Positions 1-10,682 are shown, counted from the first letter of the stretch. The stretch is DNA of 64,000 nucleotides from Streptomyces sp. CB02980 (GCF_014451325.2 NZ_JACSCH020000029.1:1-64000), one strand, 5' to 3'. The notes: generated by a model not told the origin, from the letters alone. Numbers and translations: made by a program.

Positions 1-3000
1 GCCCGGATCACGCGTTCCTGTGCGGGGCCGCTGGGTGCGGTGAGTCCGTTGGACGCGCCGTCCTGGTTGACGGCCGTACCGGCGACCACGGCAAGGACCT
101 CATGCCCCAGCCGACGGGCGTCGGACAGCCGCTCGACGACCAGGACACCGACGCCCTCGGCCCACGCCGTGCCGTCCGCGTCCGCGGAGAACGACTTGCA
201 GCGGCCGTCGGTCGCGAGTCCGCGCTGACGCGAGAACTCGACGAAGATGCCGGGCGTCGACATGACCGTCACACCGCCCGCGAGGGCGAGCGAGCACTCG
301 CCGGACCGCAGGGCCCGTACGGCCAGGTGCAGTGCGACGAGCGACGAGGAGCACGCCGTGTCGACCGTGAGCGCGGGGCCCTGCAGGCCCAGGGTGTAGG
401 CCACCCGGCCCGAGGCCACGCTCGACGTCGTGCCCGTCAGACCGAACCCGGCGGCACCCGCACCCGCCTCACCGAGCCGCGGACCGTACTCCTGGGCCAT
501 GACACCGGCGAACACGCCCGCCTGGGTGCCGCGCAGCGAGTCCGGGGCGATGCCGGCCCGCTCCAGGGCCTCCCAGCACGTTTCGAGGAAGGCGCGCTGC
601 TGCGGGTCCATCGCCAGCGCCTCACGCGGCGAGATCCCGAACAGCTCGGCGTCGAACTCCGCCGCGCCCTCCAGGAAGCCACCGTTGCGCACATACGTGG
701 TGCCCACATGGGCGGGGTCGGGGTGGTAGAGACCGTCGAGGTCCCAGCCCCGGTCCGCCGGGAAGCCCGAGATGACGTCGCGCTGCTCGGCGACGACCCG
801 CCACAGCGCCTCGGGGGAGTCCACCCCGCCCGGGAAACGGCAGCCCATGCCGACGATCACGATCGGATCGTCGTCCTGGTCGGCACGGTCCTCGGGAGCC
901 GCCGCGTCATGCCGCCCGTCGGCCAGCACCGCGGCCAGGGCGGCGGGGCTGGGGTGGTCGTACACCACGGTCGTGGGGAGCTTGCGCCCGGTGGCGGAGA
1001 CGAGCCGGTTGCGCAGCTCGACGACCATCACCGAGTCGATGCCCAGCTCCTTGAACGTCCGCCGAGGCTCGATCTCGGCGGCGGAGTCGTAGCGGAGCAC
1101 GGCGGCGGTGTGCGCCCGCACCAGCTCAAGGGCGGCCGGGCCGGTCAGCGAGCGGGTCGGCTCGGCGTCCTGCGCGTCCTCGGTGTCCTCCAGGGCCCCG
1201 ACGGAAGCCATCGGCGTCGGCGCGGTGCCGGCCGGCGGCAGCGCGCGGGCGGTGTCGGACGACCCGGCGATCCAGTGGCGGCGCCGCTGGAAGGCGTACG
1301 TCGGCAGCTCGGCGCGCGGGCCGCCGGAGGGCAGGACAGCGGACCAGTCCACGTCCGCGCCGTGGCAGAACGCCTCGCCGAACGCGAGCAGCAGCCGCTG
1401 CGGGCCGCCCTCGTCGCGGCGCAGGGTGCCCAGCGCGGCGACCGGCAGGTCCGCGGCCTCCGCAGTCTGCTGGACGGCGAGCGCGAGCACGGGGTGCGGA
1501 CTCATCTCGATGAACAGCTCGTGCCCCGCGTCGAGCAGCGCGCGTACGGCGGGCTCGAACTGCACGGGTTCCCGCAGGTTGCGGTACCAGTAGTCGACGT
1601 CCAGCTCGGACCCGTCGAGCGCCGTGGCGGTCACGGTCGAGTGCAGCGGCACGCTTCCGGTGCGCGGTGCGATTCCGGCCAGCTCCGTCGGCAGGGTGTC
1701 GCGTACGGCGTCGACGTGCGGGCTGTGCGAGGCGTACGCGACCGGCACGCGCCGGGTACGGACGTCCTCGCCGTACCGGGCGGCCAGGGCGTCCAGGGCG
1801 GCCCCGTCACCGGCGACCACGGTCATGCCGGGCGAGTTGACGGCGGCCACGCTCAACCCCGGGTACACCGCGAGGTCTTCGCGCACCCGGTCGGCGGGCA
1901 GCGACACGGTGAGCATGCCGCCGCCGCGTCCGGCCAGCGCGCCGAGGGCGGCGCTTCGTACGGCGACCAGTCGGGCCGCGTCGTCCAGGGAGAGGGCGCC
2001 GCTGACGGTGGCGGCGGCGATCTCGCCCTGCGAGTGGCCGACGACCGCGGCCGGTTCGACACCCGCCGCGCGCCACAGCGCGGCAAGACCGACCATCACG
2101 GCCCACAGCGCGGGCTGCACGACGTCGTCACGATCGAGGGCGGGCGCGCCGGGGCGGCCGCGCAGCACATCCGTCAGCGACCAGTCGCGGTACGGGCGCA
2201 GGGCGCGCTCGCAGTCCTCGACGACCCGGGCGAAGACGGGGGCGCCGTCGAGGAGTTCGGCGGCCATGCCGGCCCACTGGGAGCCCTGGCCGGGGAAGAC
2301 GAACACGGCCTCGCGAACGGCCTGGTGGCTGCTGCCCTGCACCGCGCCCCGGTCGACGCCGGCGTCGGCGACCGCGTCCAGGGCGGCCAGCAGCTCGTTC
2401 CGGTCGGCGCCGACGAGGACGGCCCGGTGGCTGAAGGTGGTCCGGTCGTGCGCGAGGGCCCGGGCGATCTCCGCGGCACCGAAATTCTGGTGCGCGGCGA
2501 GGAATTCGCGTAAACGGCCTGCCTGGGCGCGCAGCGCCTTGTCACCGCGCCCGGACAGGACCCAGGCGAGGGATTCGGAACCGTCCGAATCATCCCGCTG
2601 GTGCGGCTGGTGTGGCGTGGTCTCGGCGGCCGGAGCGGTCTCCTCCGGCCATGAGCCGAGCACCAGATGGCAGTTGGTTCCGCCCATTCCGACCGAGGTC
2701 ACACCGGCGACGAGCGGCCCGTCTGGATTCGGCCACGGTCCGGTTTCGGTGGCGGCGGTGAGCCGGAGATCGGCGAAAGGAATCTGCGGATTCGGGGTCT
2801 CGTAGTTCAGGGTCGGGACGAGTTCCCGTTCGGCGAGGCAGAGAATCGTCTTGACAAGCCCTGCGATGCCCGACGCGCCTTCGAGGTGGCCGATATTCGT
2901 CTTGACGGATCCGAGCCTGAGGGGATTATCCGAAGAGCGGGACGAGGCGAAAACAGCGCCCAGAGCAGATGCTTCGATGGGGTCGCCGACCCGGGTGCCC

Positions 3001-4043
3001 GATCCGTGTATTTCTACGTACTGTGCTTGTTCCAGCGGTATTCGCGCGTTATCCCAGGCATCGCGTATGACGCGTTCCTGGGCTTTTCCATTCGGGGTGG
3101 GAAGGGTGTCGCTCGCGCCGTCGCTGCCGACGGCTCCACCGTGCAGCACGCAGTGGATGCGGTCCCCGTCGGCCAGGGCCCGGCTGAGGAGCTTCAGCGT
3201 CACCACGCCGCCGCCCTCGCCCCGGACATAGCCGTTCGCCCGGGCGTCGAGTGCGTAACATCGACCGTCGGGCGAGAGGCTGCCGAAGGCGGCCAGGGCG
3301 TGGGTGCTCTCCGGCGCGAGGTTGAGGTTGACGCCGCCGGCGAGTGCCACGACGGACTCGCCGCGGCGCAGGCTCTCGCAGGCCAGATGCACCGCGACCA
3401 GCGCGGATGACTGTGCGGTGTCGACCACCATGCTGGGGCCCCGGAGCCCGAGGGCGTACGAGACCCGGTTGGCGATGATGCCCCGGTGCAGCCCGGTCAC
3501 GGTGTGCGCGGAGGTGGCGTCGGGTCCGGCCGCGTGCGTGACGGCCGTGTAGTCGTCGGCGATCGCGCCCATGAAGACGCCGGTGGCGGTGTCGGCGAGA
3601 GTGGCCGGGACGATGCCGGAGTCCTCGAGCGCCTCCCAGGCGAGTTCGAGGACGAGTCGCTGCTGCGGGTCCATCGCGGCGGCTTCACGCGGGGAAATGC
3701 CGAAGAATTCGGCATCGAAGGTGTCGACCCTGGGCAGGAAACCACCGGGACGCGGCGATCCGTCGGCCATGGAGGCAAGGTGTGCGCGATCTGCGGGCGG
3801 CTCGGCTATGGCGTCTCGGCCGGTCCTGAGGAGATCCCAGAATTCGGCGGGGTTCGCCCCGCCGGGAAAACGGCAGGAAAGTCCGACGACGGCGACCGTC
3901 CGGTCGTCGATCCCGCCCGGCACCAGCTGCGACGGTCCATCCTGGACCGTCGGTTCCCGCTTTTCCGCCGCACCGCCTGAAGGGCCTCGTACCGCGTCGT
4001 CTGATGGCGTTGCTGCCGCCTGAATTTGGGCATGGCGGATCAT
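1..4043 (-). CDS. Modular type I polyketide synthase, loading module plus first KS (5' part, runs off left edge)
   Basis: First 1347 residues of a larger protein read leftwards. Domain order is ketosynthase (about 45-470), acyltransferase (about 580-880), acyl carrier protein (about 970-1045), then a second ketosynthase from about 1058 that is cut by the window edge. The first KS reads DTAQSSALVAVH, with Gln211 where condensing enzymes have Cys, while HGSGT and NIGHLEG are kept: this is the KSQ decarboxylase type used in loading modules. The AT has GHSQGE (Ser671) and YASH (770-773), the pattern of methylmalonyl-specific ATs. The ACP serine is S1004 in LGIDSV. The second KS has a normal DTACSSSL (Cys1231). 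In known pathways such a module makes propionyl starter from methylmalonyl-CoA. ATG at 4043 follows a GGGGGGAG ribosome-binding site. The product cannot be told from this fragment. Confidence 0.95.
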   Translation of the reverse strand, partial: MIRHAQIQAAATPSDDAVRGPSGGAAEKREPTVQDGPSQLVPGGIDDRTVAVVGLSCRFPGGANPAEFWDLLRTGRDAIAEPPADRAHLASMADGSPRPGGFLPRVDTFDAEFFGISPREAAAMDPQQRLVLELAWEALEDSGIVPATLADTATGVFMGAIADDYTAVTHAAGPDATSAHTVTGLHRGIIANRVSYALGLRGPSMVVDTAQSSALVAVHLACESLRRGESVVALAGGVNLNLAPESTHALAAFGSLSPDGRCYALDARANGYVRGEGGGVVTLKLLSRALADGDRIHCVLHGGAVGSDGASDTLPTPNGKAQERVIRDAWDNARIPLEQAQYVEIHGSGTRVGDPIEASALGAVFASSRSSDNPLRLGSVKTNIGHLEGASGIAGLVKTILCLAERELVPTLNYETPNPQIPFADLRLTAATETGPWPNPDGPLVAGVTSVGMGGTNCHLVLGSWPEETAPAAETTPHQPHQRDDSDGSESLAWVLSGRGDKALRAQAGRLREFLAAHQNFGAAEIARALAHDRTTFSHRAVLVGADRNELLAALDAVADAGVDRGAVQGSSHQAVREAVFVFPGQGSQWAGMAAELLDGAPVFARVVEDCERALRPYRDWSLTDVLRGRPGAPALDRDDVVQPALWAVMVGLAALWRAAGVEPAAVVGHSQGEIAAATVSGALSLDDAARLVAVRSAALGALAGRGGGMLTVSLPADRVREDLAVYPGLSVAAVNSPGMTVVAGDGAALDALAARYGEDVRTRRVPVAYASHSPHVDAVRDTLPTELAGIAPRTGSVPLHSTVTATALDGSELDVDYWYRNLREPVQFEPAVRALLDAGHELFIEMSPHPVLALAVQQTAEAADLPVAALGTLRRDEGGPQRLLLAFGEAFCHGADVDWSAVLPSGGPRAELPTYAFQRRRHWIAGSSDTARALPPAGTAPTPMASVGALEDTEDAQDAEPTRSLTGPAALELVRAHTAAVLRYDSAAEIEPRRTFKELGIDSVMVVELRNRLVSATGRKLPTTVVYDHPSPAALAAVLADGRHDAAAPEDRADQDDDPIVIVGMGCRFPGGVDSPEALWRVVAEQRDVISGFPADRGWDLDGLYHPDPAHVGTTYVRNGGFLEGAAEFDAELFGISPREALAMDPQQRAFLETCWEALERAGIAPDSLRGTQAGVFAGVMAQEYGPRLGEAGAGAAGFGLTGTTSSVASGRVAYTLGLQGPALTVDTACSSSLVALHLAVRALRSGECSLALAGGVTVMSTPGIFVEFSRQRGLATDGRCKSFSADADGTAWAEGVGVLVVERLSDARRLGHEVLAVVAGTAVNQDGASNGLTAPSGPAQERVIR

Positions 4044-4122
4044 GATGTTCTTGCTCCCCCCGTGAAGCACGATCAACGGCATGGCCGACTCGGCGGCCCA
4101 GCCTGAGTCAATCTCAATTTGG

Positions 4123-4151
4123 ACCCTAGCATCGAGTCGGCGCTCCGTAAA
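4123..4151 (-). promoter_or_regulatory. Candidate promoter of the polyketide synthase gene
   Basis: Read on the minus strand, TTTACG and TAGGGT are separated by 17 nt, resembling a vegetative -35/-10 pair. Transcription would start about 70 nt before the ATG at 4043, leaving room for the ribosome-binding site. Assigned by eye only. Confidence 0.35.
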
Positions 4152-4463
4152 CCAATGGCCAGGGCGCGGGAGTTGATCCAAGAATCAATATGCCGGTAAT
4201 CGGGGGGACCGGCGTCGAGGACCTGTCTCGCGTAACCGCGCAGTTAACCATGCGGAAACAGCGCGTACTTGTGCAGCACGCGCTTTCTCGCCACGGAAGG
4301 CATATGCCGTCGGAGAGCGGCGGGCCCTCCGACAGCCCATGCCTTCCGGCCCGGCGGCCTCACCCAGGTCGGTCGACAAGGGCGAGAACCAGCCGGGCCG
4401 AAAGTCCGGAACCCTGGGGCCGAGACCACGGGGAAGCCGGCGGGGCGGGCGTGAAGTGCACGC
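4152..4463. other. Non-coding gap with a large hairpin
   Basis: No convincing gene lies here. A small inverted repeat (TTGATCCAAGAATCAA) is at 4173-4188. A larger interrupted hairpin spans 4295-4347: outer arms GGAAGGCAT and ATGCCTTCC, inner arms GTCGGAG and CTCCGAC. It lies beyond the end of the sigma-factor operon and could be a second terminator or an element between that operon and the polyketide synthase gene. The open frames crossing the gap lack coding-type third-position bias. Confidence 0.4.
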
Positions 4464-4486
4464 GGTCCACGGTCTGGCCGTGGACC
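4464..4486 (-). terminator. Hairpin terminator after the sigma-factor operon
   Basis: Perfect 9-bp inverted repeat GGTCCACGG / CCGTGGACC with a 5-nt loop, beginning 2 nt past the stop codon of the gene at 4489-4863. No U-tract follows, which is usual for actinobacterial terminators. Confidence 0.6.
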
Positions 4487-4488
4487 GG

Positions 4489-4863
4489 TCACCGGGAGGC
4501 GGCCGCGATGTTTCTTTCGGCCGCCGGCTCGCCCGCGGTCTTCGCCGCCGGGTCCGCCTTGGTGAGGGTGCAGACGCCGTCCACGCACTGGCGCTCCAGC
4601 CGACCGCGCGAGATCGTCTGCGCCAGGCCGACCATCCAGCAGGTGGGGCAGCCACGGAAGGCGATCAGCGCGAGCGGCGCCGCGAGCAGAGTGGCCGGAC
4701 CGGCGACGGGCACCATGGCGATCGAGCCGATGATCAGCCCGAAACCGATGACACCGCGCGCCAGGTGACGCGGGACGGACTTGCTGGCGAAGTTCATGTC
4801 GTTCGCCGGGGCCTTCGTGGTGACCCGGATCTGGTCGCCCTGTGCGGGCTTCACGATGTTCAC
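4489..4863 (-). CDS. Small inner-membrane protein, DUF2892/YgaP-like
   Basis: 124 residues. A short polar N-terminus leads into a hydrophobic hairpin at about residues 35-70, followed by GCPTCWMVG and a second cysteine pair (CVDGVC), then a charged tail. Size, the two-helix hairpin and the cysteine motif at its end resemble DUF2892 proteins (the membrane part of YgaP). The GTG start at 4863 is preceded by GGAGGAG. The gene lies 39 nt downstream of the ECF sigma gene and reads in the same direction, so the two are probably one operon. The substrate or partner is unknown; the cysteines would suit redox or metal sensing, but that is inference. Confidence 0.6.
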   Translation of the reverse strand: MNIVKPAQGDQIRVTTKAPANDMNFASKSVPRHLARGVIGFGLIIGSIAMVPVAGPATLLAAPLALIAFRGCPTCWMVGLAQTISRGRLERQCVDGVCTLTKADPAAKTAGEPAAERNIAAASR

Positions 4864-4902
4864 GGTCGTGACTCTCCTCCGACGGGGTGGTCGATGGCTC
4901 GA

Positions 4903-5484
4903 TCAAGCCGCCTGGTCGGTGGCCTGTTCGGGTGCTTGGTCGATCGCTTCCAGTGACTGACGTACCGCCGCGCGGGCTCGGTGCAGCCGGGACTTCATCG
5001 CGGCGTTGCTCAGACCGAGGGAATGAGCGACGGTCCTGCCGGGCAGACCCTGGACGTCCCGCATGATCAGGACCTGCCGCTGGTCGCGGGGCAGTGCGCC
5101 GACCGCGGCCGCGATCCGCTCCACTTCCAGCCTGTGCAGCACCGCTTCTTCGGCGGACGGCTCCGCGGACGCCTCCGGCTCGGCCGGCGGCTCGTCGTTG
5201 CGATGGACGAGAAACCGCACCTGCCGGAGGCATTCGTTGCGCACGATCCGGAACATCCACGAGGCGAGCGCACCGGTGGCCCGCAGGGTGCCGATCTTCC
5301 GGTAGAGGATGATCAGCGCCTCCTGCGCGGCGTCCTCGGCGTCCTGAGGCGAGGCGCACAGCGACCTGGCGAACTTGCGCACATGAGGCTGCGATTCCAT
5401 GACGACGGTGGTGAGCGACGTGACGTCGCCGTCCTGGGCAGCCTTGATCAGCCGCTCGTCCGGCCAGGAGAAACGTTGGTTCAT
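4903..5484 (-). CDS. ECF-family RNA polymerase sigma factor
   Basis: 193 residues with the two-domain ECF layout. Region 2 lies at about residues 25-90 (DAEDAAQEALIILYRK, then WMFRIVRNECLRQ). Region 4, with its helix-turn-helix, lies at about 125-180 (LPRDQRQVLIMRDVQG, then GLSNAAMKSRLHRAR). It would direct core RNA polymerase to a small regulon. No anti-sigma gene is adjacent; the co-transcribed partner is the small cysteine-bearing membrane protein downstream, which may link sigma activity to the membrane. The sequence TATGAG lies 6 nt before the ATG, so its own message may be leaderless. Confidence 0.92.
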   Translation of the reverse strand: MNQRFSWPDERLIKAAQDGDVTSLTTVVMESQPHVRKFARSLCASPQDAEDAAQEALIILYRKIGTLRATGALASWMFRIVRNECLRQVRFLVHRNDEPPAEPEASAEPSAEEAVLHRLEVERIAAAVGALPRDQRQVLIMRDVQGLPGRTVAHSLGLSNAAMKSRLHRARAAVRQSLEAIDQAPEQATDQAA

Positions 5485-5526
5485 GTGCTACTCATACCCG
5501 GCGGGCGCCCCGCGTGCAGGCACTCG

Positions 5527-5616
5527 TCAGCTTCGGCTCTTGTTGTAGCGCCGCATGAGGTGCCAGCTGCACGCGCCCACGAGCAGGACTCCGATGACTA
5601 CGAGGGCCGTGACCAT
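5527..5616 (-). CDS. 29-residue single-helix membrane peptide
   Basis: A very short frame starting at 5616 with an excellent ribosome-binding site (AGGAGG, 6 nt spacing). It encodes MVTALVVIGVLLVGACSWHL followed by a basic tail ending in KSRS, that is, one hydrophobic helix with a positively charged C-terminus. An in-frame upstream extension is possible, but the ribosome-binding site argues for this start. Tiny membrane peptides of this kind are common in Streptomyces and usually of unknown role. It sits alone between the sigma gene and rpsN. Confidence 0.6.
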   Translation of the reverse strand: MVTALVVIGVLLVGACSWHLMRRYNKSRS

Positions 5617-5797
5617 TGTGTTCCTCCTGTTGCTCCGCCGGCGCGTTCGGCCGGTACACACATAAGAGACGGCGACCCCCCAAGAGGATTCAGCTCCGGC
5701 CGAAGTTTTTTTGCCGTGCACCGCTCGGGGGCCGTCCAGGGGCGTCGTACCGGTCCACGGCGCATGCGTCGTGCCAGGTCGGAGCCTTGTGGCCGTA
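5617..5797. other. Intergenic region with no recognised gene
   Basis: This stretch holds the ribosome-binding site of the small peptide gene and an unusual run of seven T at 5706-5712 for such GC-rich DNA. I see no clear terminator hairpin for the rpsN transcript and no further gene. Confidence 0.4.
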
Positions 5798-6103
5798 CTA
5801 CCAGGAGGACTTGGTCACGCCGGGGAGGAAGCCCGCGTGCGCCTGCTGCCGGGTGCGGACGCGGGAGAGTCCGAACCTGCGCAGGTAGCCGCGGGGCCTG
5901 CCGTCGACGCTGTCGCGGTTGCGGACCCGGGTGGGGCTGGCGTCGCGCGGCTGCCGGTCCAGTTCCTCCCGGGCGGCCAGGCGCTGCCCGGCGGTCGACG
6001 ACGGGCGGCGGACGATCTCCTTCAGCTCGGCCCGCCTGGCGGCGTGCCGCGCGACGATCACCTTGCGCTTCTCGTTCCGCGCGATCTTGCTCTGCTTCGC
6101 CAT
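5798..6103 (-). CDS. rpsN: 30S ribosomal protein S14, zinc-free paralogue
   Basis: 101 residues, the long form of S14 found in the small-subunit head. The N-terminus [13 protein letters not shown] and the C-terminal [16 protein letters not shown] are diagnostic. The zinc-ribbon cysteines of C-plus S14 are missing: the positions read RDSVDGRP and GLSRVRTR. C-minus paralogues are made under zinc starvation so that zinc tied up in ribosomes can be released; this is established for Zur regulons in streptomycetes and other bacteria. Its ATG overlaps the stop codon of rpmB by one base, so the two are translationally coupled and share the divergent promoter near 6400. Confidence 0.95.
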
Positions 6104-6339
6104 CAGACCTTCCCCCCGCGCGCCCGGATCCGGGCCACGGCCGCCTCGATGCCGATCGAGTCCACCGTCCTGATCGCCCGGACGCTCAGGGTCAGCCGGA
6201 CGTTGCGGCCCTCGCTGGGCAGCCGGTAGCGCTTGTGCTGGATGTTCGGGTCGAAGCGGCGCGGGGTGCGCCGGTGGGAGTGGGAGATCGCGTTGCCGAA
6301 GCCGGGCTCGGCGCCGGTCAGCTGGCAGTGGGCGGACAT
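6103..6339 (-). CDS. rpmB: 50S ribosomal protein L28, zinc-free paralogue
   Basis: 78 residues. The motifs [16 protein letters not shown] and [15 protein letters not shown] mark L28. The first cysteine remains (C5, in CQLTG) but the second of the usual CxxC is Thr and no later pair exists, so it cannot hold the zinc ribbon. First gene of the minus-strand arm of the zinc-starvation island, running into rpsN. Its start at 6339 lies about 50 nt from the palindrome at 6390-6406, so it is probably controlled by the same operator as the plus-strand arm. Confidence 0.95.
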
Positions 6340-6383
6340 GGGTGTACCTGCCTCTCTCTGTGGCCGTCGTCGGCCATCACTTA

Positions 6384-6411
6384 TTGGAAATGAAAACCGT
6401 TGCCATATACT
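6384..6411 (+). promoter_or_regulatory. Promoter of rpmG arm with candidate Zur operator in the spacer
   Basis: TTGGAA (6384-6389) and TATACT (6406-6411) form a good -35/-10 pair with 16-nt spacing. The spacer is filled by an imperfect 17-bp palindrome, ATGaaAACcGTTgcCAT (6390-6406). The -10 ends 6 nt before the rpmG ATG and no ribosome-binding site is present, so the message is probably leaderless. The position and AT-rich symmetry suit a Zur repressor site controlling both divergent arms; the assignment to Zur is inferred from the genes served. Confidence 0.6.
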
Positions 6412-6417
6412 AGCCTC

Positions 6418-6582
6418 ATGGCACGCAACGAACTCCGCCCCGTCATCAAGCTGCGCTCCACCGCGGGCACCGGCTTCACGTACGTCACCCGCAAGAACCG
6501 GCGGAACGACCCCGACCGGCTGGTGCTGCGCAAGTACGACCCGACGGCCCGCCGCCACGTCGACTTCCGCGAAGAGCGCTGA
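6418..6582 (+). CDS. rpmG: 50S ribosomal protein L33, zinc-free paralogue
   Basis: 54 residues: [19 protein letters not shown], then [20 protein letters not shown], the whole length of L33. The four cysteines of the C-plus form are absent. An upstream in-frame ATG at 6400 lies inside the promoter palindrome and is rejected; the start at 6418 matches the family N-terminus and the predicted transcription start. First gene of the plus-strand arm rpmG - rpmE2 - COG0523 - rpsR. Confidence 0.95.
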
Positions 6583-6592
6583 GCACTCCCCG

Positions 6593-6625
6593 CCGCACAG
6601 AAGCCGCACAGAAGCCGCACAGAAG
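6593..6625 (+). repeat. Three perfect copies of an 11-bp tandem repeat
   Basis: CCGCACAGAAG occurs three times head to tail between rpmG and rpmE2, ending just before the AGAAAGG ribosome-binding site of rpmE2. Probably slippage in the spacer; it could alter the spacing or folding ahead of rpmE2. Confidence 0.9.
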
Positions 6626-6637
6626 AAAGGTCCTGCC

Positions 6638-6883
6638 ATGAAGCCCGGCATCCACCCCGCCTACGGCCCCGTCGTCTTCCGCGACACCGCCTCCGGCTCC
6701 GCGTTCCTCACGCGCTCCACCCTCACCAGTGAGAAGACGATCGAGTGGGAGGACGGGCAGACGTACCCGGTCGTCGACGTCGAGATCTCCTCCGTGAGCC
6801 ACCCCTTCTACACGGGCACCGCCCGTGTGATGGACACCGCCGGACGCGTCGAGCGCTTCGAGCGCCGCTACGGGGCCCGCTGA
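6638..6883 (+). CDS. rpmE2: 50S ribosomal protein L31, type B (zinc-free)
   Basis: 81 residues matching type B L31 throughout: [49 protein letters not shown]. Type B L31 lacks the CxxC of type A and replaces it on the ribosome under zinc limitation. The ATG at 6638 follows AGAAAGG. The stop codon overlaps the start of the next gene (TGATG), so it is coupled to the COG0523 protein. Confidence 0.95.
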
Positions 6884-8034
6884 TGGCGCGGGATTCCCGG
6901 CTGCCCGTCGTGATCGTCGCCGGGATCCACTCGGACGCCCGCAAGGAGGTCGTCGACCGCCTCCTGCGGGCCGTTCCCGGCAGCGTCGCCCTCCATCACG
7001 ACCTGACGGGCGCGCCGGACGGCACGGTGCGCCGCCTCGTCCGTGACGCGAGCGGACTGCTGTCCGAGGACGGGACGCCCCTCGTCAACGACTGCGCGTG
7101 CTGCGCGCTGCGCGAGGACCTCGTACCGGAGCTGGAGCGGCTGGCCGGCGCCGGCCTGACCCGGCTCGCCGTGGTCGAACTCTGGGACTCGGTCGAGCCG
7201 AAGACGATGGCCGAGGTCGTCGCCGCCCACGCCGGGGACGGCCTCACCCTCACCAACGTGATCACGGCGGTGGACCCGGCTCTCGTGCTGCCGTATCTCG
7301 GCAACGGCGACGACCTGGCCGAAGCCGGTCTGGCCGCCGCCCCCACCGACCGGCGAACCGTCGGCGACACCTTCGCCCGTCAGCTGGAGTACGCACCCGT
7401 CCTCGCCCTCGTCGACAGGGAGGAGGCCGACGGCGAGGACCGTGCGCTGCTCGCCCAGTTGCACCCCACCGCCCGCCGGGTGGCGGCCGACTCGGGCGAT
7501 CTGGCCGAGGCCGCCTTCGCCGGCTTCGACGTCGAGGCCGCCGCGGCGGCGCAGCATCCCGCGTGCGCGCTGCTGCCTCAGGACGCGGACGACGCCGGTG
7601 TCACGACACTCGTCTGGCACCGCCGACGGCCCTTCCATCCCGAGCGTCTGTACGCGGCGCTGGAGGACCTGTGCTGCGCCGCCGCGCGCAGTCGCGGCCG
7701 GTTCTGGCTGGCCGACCGCCCCGACACCCTGCTGGCCTGGGACGCCGCGGGCGGTGCGCTGTGCGTCGAGAGCGCCAGCCCGTGGCTCGCCTCCCTGCCG
7801 GACGCCGCCTGGGAGTCGGTCCCACCGATGCGCCGGGCCGCCGCCGCCCTGGACTGGCACCCCGAGCACGGCGACTGCTGCCAGCACCTCGTCTTCACCT
7901 CGCCGGGGCTCGACCGCGACGGGCTGGAACGGCTGCTCGAGTCCTGCCTGCTCACGGACGAGGAGTACGCGTCCGGGCCGGACGGCTGGAGGCACCTGCC
8001 CGCCGCCTTCGACTCCCTTCTCGACGCCGCCTGA
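6883..8034 (+). CDS. COG0523/CobW-like metal protein with degenerate GTPase site
   Basis: 383 residues. The fold cues of COG0523 metallochaperone GTPases are present: an N-terminal strand-loop-helix, the CxCC metal motif (C71-A-C73-C74), [11 protein letters not shown], and a C-terminal CobW_C-like part with [13 protein letters not shown]. The nucleotide site is eroded: the P-loop position reads [11 protein letters not shown] instead of GxxxxGK(T/S), and the NKxD position reads VDREEAD. It may bind zinc through CxCC and extra cysteines but probably does not hydrolyse GTP like YciC or ZagA relatives. Its place between rpmE2 and rpsR in a zinc-starvation operon suggests a zinc-handling or ribosome-remodelling role. 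It is coupled to rpmE2 by a one-base overlap. Confidence 0.8.
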
Positions 8035-8068
8035 CCCACGCACCACTCGACCCGGAAGGAAAACCCTC

Positions 8069-8305
8069 ATGGCCCGCCGTCAGGAACCCCGCCAGCCTCT
8101 GAAGTCCCGCCCCAACCCGCTCGACGCCGCCAAGATCACGTACATCGACTACAAGGACACCGACCTGCTGCGGACGTTCGTGTCGGACCGCGGCAAGATC
8201 CGCAGCCGCCGCGTCACCCGGGTCACCGCCCAGCAGCAGCGGCGGCTCGCCGCCGCCGTCAAGAACGCCCGGGAGATGGCACTGCTGCCGTACGCCGGCC
8301 GGTGA
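8069..8305 (+). CDS. rpsR: 30S ribosomal protein S18, zinc-free paralogue
   Basis: 78 residues. [46 protein letters not shown] and ALLPYA mark S18. The N-terminal cysteines found in C-plus S18 are missing. An AAGGA ribosome-binding site precedes the ATG. Last gene of the plus-strand arm; a hairpin follows 4 nt after the stop. Confidence 0.95.
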
Positions 8306-8309
8306 GATC

Positions 8310-8328
8310 CGGGCGGGGAGGCCGCCCG
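8310..8328 (+). terminator. Hairpin terminator after rpsR
   Basis: CGGGCGG / CCGCCCG with a 5-nt loop, starting 5 nt after the stop codon and closing the zinc-starvation operon. Confidence 0.6.
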
Positions 8329-8485
8329 CCGACCCGGCTCGGGGAGCACCCGTGGTCATGCTTCGTCATCCCTCTGCTCCATTCGGCAGGCGTCGTTCAT
8401 GCCCAGCAGTGAGTGCCCTCCCCGACCGGATCAACCCCGGAGGCCGTGCGTGGTGCTCCGACCAGGGGGAACGGACACTCGCGGC

Positions 8486-10426
8486 ATGAAATCCGATACT
8501 CAACGGCGCCCGGCGCGCCCTCGGAGGCGTACCGGCGCCGTCGGGCTCGCGTACGCCGTGTCCCTCGTCGCGGTCCCCGCGCTCATGCTCGGCCCGAGCG
8601 CGTCCGTCGCGCTCGCGGCCCCGCTTCCCGGGGGACTCGGTCCCTGTGTCCCCGGGGACTGTCCCGACGAGTTCCCCGAGATCGACAACGGCGACATCGC
8701 CGGACGCGACGACGCGATCAACATCTTCGTCGGGAACGACTTCCTCGTCCGGGGCCGGGCGGCCGAGGCCGAGGGGCGGGTCGTGGTCCTGGACGACTTC
8801 GACCAGAACAAGGACGCGGCCGCCGGCGGCACGTACAACCTCGGCATCGTCGGCGTGGGATCCCGGGTCCCTCCGCCCGACGGGTCGGACTTCCTCACCA
8901 CCGGCGGAGGTGTCACCATCGCGGCGGGCCAGACCCTCGACACGAAGGGCGGCCTGGTGGCGGAGCAAGGGATCGTCCGTCACGCGGGCCCGGTCTCGGG
9001 AACGGTGACCGGCACCCTCGTCGAGGACGCGAACGCCGTCGTGCCGTACGCCGGACTGCGTGACCGGCTCACCGCGGCCAGCCGCTGCTACGCCCGGGTC
9101 GACGGCCAACCGAGGACGCCCACCGGTACGGCGGTGAACCAGGGCGGCCAGACGCTCTTCACCGGTGACGGGACCTCGCAACTCCAGGTGTTCAACGTCG
9201 GCTTCGACCTGGAGGGGCCGAACGGTCAGCAGGGGATCGTCTTCGCGAACATCCCCGACACCGCGACGGTCCTCGTCAACGTCCTGGGCGACCAGGGCAA
9301 GATCACCACTTACAGCGGCGGCATCGACGACGACACCGACCCGCTCAACTCCTACCGCGAACGCCTGCTGTGGAACTTCCCCGACGCCACCACGGTGGAC
9401 CTCGCCGGCACCGGACAGTTCCAGGGCAGCTTCCTCATCGGCAACCAGACGTCGAGCACGACCGTCACCCTGCCCGGCATCAACGGCCGTTTCTTCACCA
9501 CGGGTTCCCTCACCCACACCAGCGCGGCATCGGGCGGCGGCGGGCAGGAGTTCCACGCCTACCCCTTCAACGGCGACCTTCCGGACTGCGACGGGACCAA
9601 CACGGTCACCGGCGAGGTGCGGGTCCTGAAGACGGACGCGGCGTCCGGTGCGGCGCTCTCGGGTGCGACCTTCCGGCTGTGGGAGGAGACGAACGGCGTG
9701 TCGGGTCTGCAGACGAGCGGAACGAACCCGGACACCGCGCTCGGCGGGCTCTGCACGACGGGTGCGGACGGTCTGTGCGAGCGGACGGTGGAGACGGGGA
9801 CGTACTACTGGCAGGAGACGGATGCTCCCGACGGGTACGACCTGCCGTCGCCGGCCGTGTTCGGACCGCTGGTGCTGACCGAGGCGAACGCCGACGCGGG
9901 CGTGTCCGTCACGGCGACCAACAGCCGCACACCGGTCACGCCCGGCACCGGCTCGGTCTGGCTGCTCAAGGCCGACGCGGACAGCGGCCTGCCGCTGAGG
10001 GGCGCGACGTTCGAGCTGTGGGAGGAGAGCAACGGGCAAAGCGGCCTGCAGACGGGCGGCACCGACCCCGACACCCGCGTCGGGACACCGTGCACCACCA
10101 ATGTGGTGGGGCTCTGCTCCTTCGGCGAGCTGGAGAACGGCTCCTACTACCTGAGGGAGACGGCCGTCCCGGACGGCTACGTCCTGCCCACCGACCCGGT
10201 CACGGGCCCCTACGTCATCGACGACGAGCAGAAGGCCGTGGTGGCCCGACTGGACAACAGCCGAGCCGACGACCACTGCGAGGACGGGGGCTACGGCGAC
10301 CCGGGATACGGCGACGAGGGATACGGAGATGAGGGGTACGGCGACCAGGGGTACGGCGACCAGGGGTACGGCGACTCGGGCTACGGCTCGTGCCTCCGCG
10401 GCAAGAGCCGCACCGGCGTCGCCTGA
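8486..10426 (+). CDS. Secreted choice-of-anchor A protein with two SpaA-like domains and a Gly-Tyr tail
   Basis: 646 residues from the ATG at 8486, which gives a clean signal peptide (basic RRRTG region, hydrophobic stretch, ALAAP). An upstream in-frame ATG at 8399 would bury it. Residues about 60-370 look like the choice-of-anchor A (BIIA) domain ([33 protein letters not shown]). Two repeated prealbumin-like SpaA/Cna-B domains follow ([17 protein letters not shown] ... [27 protein letters not shown] ... [10 protein letters not shown]), with the Lys and Glu of intramolecular isopeptide bonds visible. The C-terminus is about seven GYGD-type pentapeptides. No LPxTG signal or C-terminal membrane helix is present. 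Probably a surface or matrix protein; its partner is unknown. Confidence 0.8.
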
Positions 10427-10503
10427 TCGCTGCGGATGAACGCCGACGACAGCCTATGACGCTGATCGCCACTGGTCACCACTGATCACCGACCGAGCAT
10501 CGA

Positions 10504-10545
10504 CGAGGCGCGCCCACCGTCCCGAGTGACGGTGGGCGCGCCTCG
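10504..10545 (+). terminator. Strong hairpin terminator
   Basis: Perfect 18-bp stem (left arm 10504-10521, right arm 10528-10545) with a 6-nt loop, 77 nt after the surface-protein gene. It isolates that gene from the next one. Confidence 0.85.
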
Positions 10546-10682
10546 GTACGTGGGCGGCGGGCAGGACTCATGAGCAGCCGGGCAGTCGCGCACGTGATCG
10601 TGCCCTCACCCGTTCGTCCCGCCCTGCCTGGCCCGAACCATGCGCGGGGGATTGGCTGGGCGCACACCGTGAGGAGGCACCC

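Follow-up and report, generated by a model that had tools for sequence, protein, structure and literature searches.

The polyketide synthase (PKS) gene that runs off the left edge of the analysed stretch of Streptomyces sp. CB02980 DNA (64,000 nucleotides, here called the window) probably encodes the first part of a short collinear PKS-NRPS hybrid, which would start from propionyl, extend three times, form a thiazoline with cysteine and deliver its product to a flavin enzyme for oxidation. Judged by its sequence, the locus is an orphan representative of a known cluster type, predicted to make a short polyketide-cysteine hybrid and not a macrolide, and it apparently has no assigned product. It is compact (two megasynthase genes, ~24 kb), is conserved in many Streptomyces species in varied surroundings, and is an easy expression target for which a specific sulfur-containing mass is predicted.

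The loading module at the contig edge

On the minus strand of the window a frame is open from a TTG at 4181 down to base 3. Because window base 1 is also base 1 of contig C25 (83,419 bases; the assembly has 9.07 Mb in 85 contigs), this gene, which we call gene A, is cut by the assembly, and its 5′ part (3–4043, minus strand), comprising the loading module and the start of module 1, ends at the contig edge. The probable start is the ATG at 4043, which is preceded by a ribosome-site-like stretch, GGGGGGAG. The CB02009 ortholog of this 5′ part shows 92% identity, and a Pfam search of the long frame found two ketoacyl-synthase stretches, one acyltransferase (AT; 626–943 of the frame) and one phosphopantetheine site (1020–1085).

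The first ketosynthase (KS) is a decarboxylase-type KSQ domain (2619–3902, minus strand). As the first-pass annotation had noticed, residue 211, counted from the ATG at 4043, is Gln in place of the active-site Cys (codon CAG at 3413–3411, minus strand, within VDTAQSSALVAVH), and Gln is kept in all 38 of the related loci that were aligned across the KSQ active-site stretch. This invariance excludes a sequencing error that hid a Cys at 211, and that explanation was rejected. The KSQ domain also retains both catalytic His residues (HGSGT and KTNIGH) and is followed by an AT and an ACP with its Ser, and these sequence features support its assignment as a decarboxylating loading ketosynthase.

The loading AT (1344–2306, minus strand; Pfam) carries GHSQG and YASH, as had been read earlier, and in our tree it falls with the GHSQG/YASH acyltransferases with support of 98/97, apart from the other clade, whose malonyl-type members carry GHSIG or GHSVG and in several cases HAFH; the clades are defined by motif and not by assay. 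The earlier classification as methylmalonyl-type agrees with both motifs and clade; malonyl specificity was looked for with the tree but not obtained, and it is rejected on tree and motif alike. Given these motifs and the placement in the methylmalonyl clade, a propionyl starter for the gene A line is a well-supported prediction, and together with Gln211 the AT upholds the original reading of a KSQ loading module with that starter. The loading ACP (918–1124, minus strand; Pfam) has its phosphopantetheine serine in LGIDS. The second KS, that of module 1 (3–872, minus strand), has its active Cys in a normal VDTACSSSLVALH and is cut by the contig end, its last 77 bases being those of the end of contig C49.

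The complete assembly line

The remainder of the cluster had been expected to lie to the left; the modules do run off the window's left edge, and they were found both in the CB02009 ortholog and on other contigs of the same genome. CB02009, S. nymphaeiformis and NBC_00572 each have the two PKS genes and a flavin monooxygenase gene complete. In these complete orthologs gene A (~3,210–3,255 aa) has the order KSQ-AT(YASH)-ACP / KS-AT(HAFH)-DH-ER-KR-ACP, and gene B (~4,410–4,460 aa) the order KS-AT(YASH)-DH-KR-ACP / KS-AT(YASH)-DH-like-ACP-Cy-A-PCP-TE, with a class B flavin monooxygenase directly after it. The domain families assigned to the CB02980 pieces themselves support this order; the last ACP of gene B is seen in the CB02980 piece, and the module 1 AT, on contig C44 of that genome, lies in the malonyl clade of the AT tree. 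DH1 and DH2 retain HxxxGxxxxP and the Asp, and both KRs have LDD and the catalytic YAAxN. The DH-like domain of module 3 has Phe in place of His with the Asp kept, and module 3 has no KR; the third extension should therefore stay a ketone.

The Cy domain has the motif DALIIDGFS (DxxxxDxxS type), and the core motifs of the A, PCP and TE domains are intact. The adenylation code, DLYNMSLIWK as read by eye with the usual Lys517 added, figures among cysteine signatures (PMC12283262). By its Cy motif, A code, PCP and TE, the terminal module has all the predicted features of a heterocyclising, cysteine-type Cy-A-PCP-TE.

The pieces of the line in the CB02980 genome

The break of C25 falls inside a repeated KS, and many other contigs of this assembly likewise end within PKS domains. 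At their left ends C25 and C49 have the same sequence over exactly 77 bases, and C49 and C18 have 77 bases in common at their other ends; such shared ends are the pattern that a k-mer assembler would leave where it halted at a collapsed repeat, as expected if KS and AT repeats broke the assembly. Within one strain the KS and AT of modules 2 and 3 are nearly the same. Modules 2 and 3 of gene B are ~88–89% identical over ~2.7 kb in CB02009 and S. nymphaeiformis. In NBC_00572 a 1,049-base AT stretch is 100% identical between the two modules, so gene conversion probably keeps these repeats alike, and the pattern suggests that recent gene conversion in gene B also explains the assembly breaks. The locus is thus a case in which KS and AT repeats split short-read assemblies and can lead to a wrong interpretation when only half of a cluster is visible.

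The line in CB02980 is spread over four contigs, with 90–95% amino acid identity to CB02009 and with both outer flanks ordered as in that strain. C25 holds the start; module 1 continues on C44, which also has the end of gene A and the beginning of gene B; module 2 and KS3 are on C49; and C18 carries the end of module 3, the NRPS module and the flavin monooxygenase. In CB02009 numbering the parts missing between contigs are residues 1401–1452 of gene A and 613–905 and 2054–2623 of gene B; these gaps of ~52, 293 and 570 residues correspond to part of KS1, to AT2, and to the end of KS3 with AT3. Both AT2 and AT3 fall in gaps, and their specificity in CB02980 is taken from the orthologs.

A KSQ domain with a methylmalonyl AT begins many macrolide synthases, and the CB02980 genome holds many further PKS modules; the first-pass annotation had accordingly taken gene A for the loading end of a large synthase making a reduced or macrolide-type polyketide. 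We regard this as extremely improbable. Genes A and B are contiguous on C44, and in the orthologs Cy-A-PCP-TE closes the line behind the third module, where a macrolide PKS would be a multi-module line with a macrolactonising TE right after a PKS module; moreover, the other PKS contigs of this genome have no match to the line at ≥75% identity. On the sequences compared, a large macrolide-type line starting at gene A is already contradicted by synteny, and it was rejected on this ground and on the terminal, apparently cysteine-specific module that follows the three extensions.

Contig C24 carries, at ~1–10571, another PKS that has a KSQ of its own (VDTGQSSSLVAVH), a YASH methylmalonyl loading AT and further modules. 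A long macrolide-like line, if there is one, more likely belongs to this PKS than to gene A.

Cluster limits, neighbours and distribution

A scan of GTDB species genomes gave 18 loci with a KSQ-AT 81–95% identical to that of gene A, all in Streptomyces, and the next matches were ≤57% identical. Directly upstream of the PKS in the window, and in relatives too, is a gene for a 124-aa small membrane-type protein with a GTG start (4489–4863, minus strand), and beyond it is an ECF-type RNA polymerase sigma factor gene (4903–5484, minus strand). Both are present in 17 of the 17 loci (among the 18) with enough upstream sequence, and the sigma factor keeps its position in relatives whose outer flanks differ; it is a likely regulator of the cluster.

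In all three complete orthologs the genes for the sigma factor and the membrane protein come first, then genes A and B, the flavin monooxygenase and a 144-aa protein, and after these, on the opposite strand, an acyl-CoA ligase gene and then the gene of a secreted protein. Neither the 124-aa nor the 144-aa protein could be placed credibly in a Pfam family. No CobW gene turned up in the S. nymphaeiformis or NBC_00572 stretches, and no ABC-type gene in that of S. nymphaeiformis. Since the inner order is kept while the outer neighbours differ, the conserved block has clear ends. The secreted protein at the cluster end (195 aa; L110:9065–9649) is 62–93% identical in relatives and matched no Pfam or NCBIfam family.

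Two further features of the window were recognised by eye. Beside the cluster, at 6333–8305, a CobW-like GTPase is accompanied by short frames resembling alternative ribosomal proteins (L31-type and S18-type), an arrangement that we take to be like that of zinc-starvation regulons. At 8399–10426 there is a large secreted protein with two SpaA-like repeat segments and a C-terminal GYGDxGYGD run.

Proposed product

All of the chemical steps proposed here are predicted from sequence, with which iteration or skipping of a module would also be compatible. Methylmalonyl-ACP would be decarboxylated to propionyl, to which module 1 would add a C2 unit with full reduction, giving pentanoyl. Module 2 would add a methyl-branched C2 unit with dehydration, giving 2-methylhept-2-enoyl, and module 3 a second methyl-branched C2 unit with the ketone left in place, giving 2,4-dimethyl-3-oxonon-4-enoyl. 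The Cy domain would join L-cysteine to this chain and close the thiazoline, and the TE would release the thiazoline product, expected to be C14H21NO3S before tailoring (hand arithmetic). The flavin enzyme would then oxidise the released product, and this is the least certain of the proposed steps. In the open-access literature we found no product matched to the same architecture, to a flavin monooxygenase together with a thiazoline, or to strain CB02009.

The flavin enzyme and the wider family

A search of 395 genomes of the same bacterial family gave three orthologs of the Cy domain, with 87–97% identity, and six relatives with 56–62% identity. Four of the six (G131, G313, G030 and G140) have the gene A architecture, a shorter gene B and an adjoining acyl-CoA-dehydrogenase-like enzyme, and the other two (G258 and G198) end in KS-AT-DH-like-Cy-A-PCP-TE with an adjoining LLM-class flavin oxidoreductase. 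On a linear plasmid of Streptomyces NBC_00162, genes for an LLM-class oxidoreductase and a flavin reductase come after a PKS-NRPS gene, and in a genome of another bacterial family (G557; Cy 54% identical) a class B flavin monooxygenase is near by. Thus a flavin enzyme recurs beside Cy-A-PCP-TE and comes from three superfamilies (class B flavin monooxygenase, acyl-CoA-dehydrogenase-like, and LLM class with or without a flavin reductase), the neighbours having been named by eye, apart from those on the annotated plasmid and the class B enzymes, which were identified by HMM.

In the gene B of the S. lydicus type (L147:9013–15846) the KS has VETACSS but SSTGT for HGTGT, and a shortened AT without GHSxG precedes ACP-Cy-A-PCP-TE; this module may for these reasons be non-elongating.

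Oxidative decarboxylation after release, by which the flavin enzyme would convert the thiazoline-4-carboxylic acid to a 2-substituted thiazole, is one particular form of the final step proposed above. The enzyme sits right after the TE, here and in distant relatives, and LynB7 of lyngbyapeptin B carries out just this conversion of a TE-released 2-thiazoline-4-carboxylic acid (PMC10127204). LynB7 is, however, a non-heme diiron enzyme and not a flavin monooxygenase, and Baeyer-Villiger oxidation, α-hydroxylation or S-oxidation of the β-ketone or thiazoline would be equally compatible with the data, so that we consider this particular conversion doubtful. It is a tentative and rather unlikely suggestion that the repeated pairing of the terminal module with a flavin enzyme, whose superfamily differs from lineage to lineage, marks an undescribed flavin-driven transformation of a β-keto thiazoline, for which ring oxidation, C-C cleavage and sulfur transfer would be candidates, and with it a new class of sulfur heterocycles. 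The recurrent pairing and the predicted masses, which are easy to test, are the part of this work that most deserves specialist attention.

Comparison with known systems

The loading module resembles the KSQ loading module of GfsA (PDB 9jj9, 9iyw) in its KSQ-AT order and in sequence similarity across KSQ-AT; as in GfsA-type KSQ domains, Gln replaces Cys and both catalytic histidines are present. In the comparison with GfsA, methylmalonyl motifs are stated for the loading AT of gene A only. The lyngbyapeptin B line (PMC10127204) resembles the predicted pathway in releasing a thiazoline-4-carboxylate that then meets an oxidising enzyme, but that enzyme is a non-heme diiron oxygenase there and a flavin monooxygenase here, and the polyketide part differs. 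The sister clusters with 54–62% Cy identity share the PKS module leading into Cy-A-PCP-TE and then a flavin enzyme; they differ in the flavin enzyme family and in module number, and in the G313 type the AT that precedes Cy is defective. We know of no product for any of them.

The closest described systems are those for thiolactomycin and Tu 3010 (TlmA-TlmB and TueA-TueC; PMC5518548), which we compared by description. Thiolactomycin assembly starts with a KSQ, builds a tetraketide whose third extension stays unreduced, and includes Cy-A(Cys)-PCP-TE (PMC5518548). Thiotetronate synthases and the present line have in common the KSQ start, tetraketide length, methylmalonyl extension, a final unreduced ketone and Cy-A(Cys)-PCP, and the TE is shared with TlmB. 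In addition, the branching and oxidation predicted at the carboxyl end (alkene then ketone in the last two steps) equal those of thiolactomycin. A thiotetronate-like outcome, in which cysteine would donate sulfur, attack on an oxidised polyketide carbon would follow and a five-membered thiolactone would be released, is therefore possible, but we think it quite improbable.

Thiotetronate synthases work with one iterative module and without a loading AT, and their clusters include a P450 and a KAS resistance gene (PMC5518548), whereas this line has three collinear modules, a loading AT in gene A where TlmA has none, a fully reduced first extension and a flavin monooxygenase. The conserved block contains no P450, the nearest matches being at C18:25641 (~19 kb from the flavin monooxygenase) and C25:24809, and no KAS resistance gene: a PF00109 search of C18 was empty and on C25 found only the KSQ and KS domains. 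Neither the single iterative module nor the AT-less KSQ-ACP initiator is seen here, and we rejected filing the cluster as a thiotetronate synthase, keeping that outcome as a rival only. Read as a short PKS-NRPS hybrid with a terminal thiazoline, the line can be set beside the iterative synthase of thiolactomycin as a collinear counterpart.
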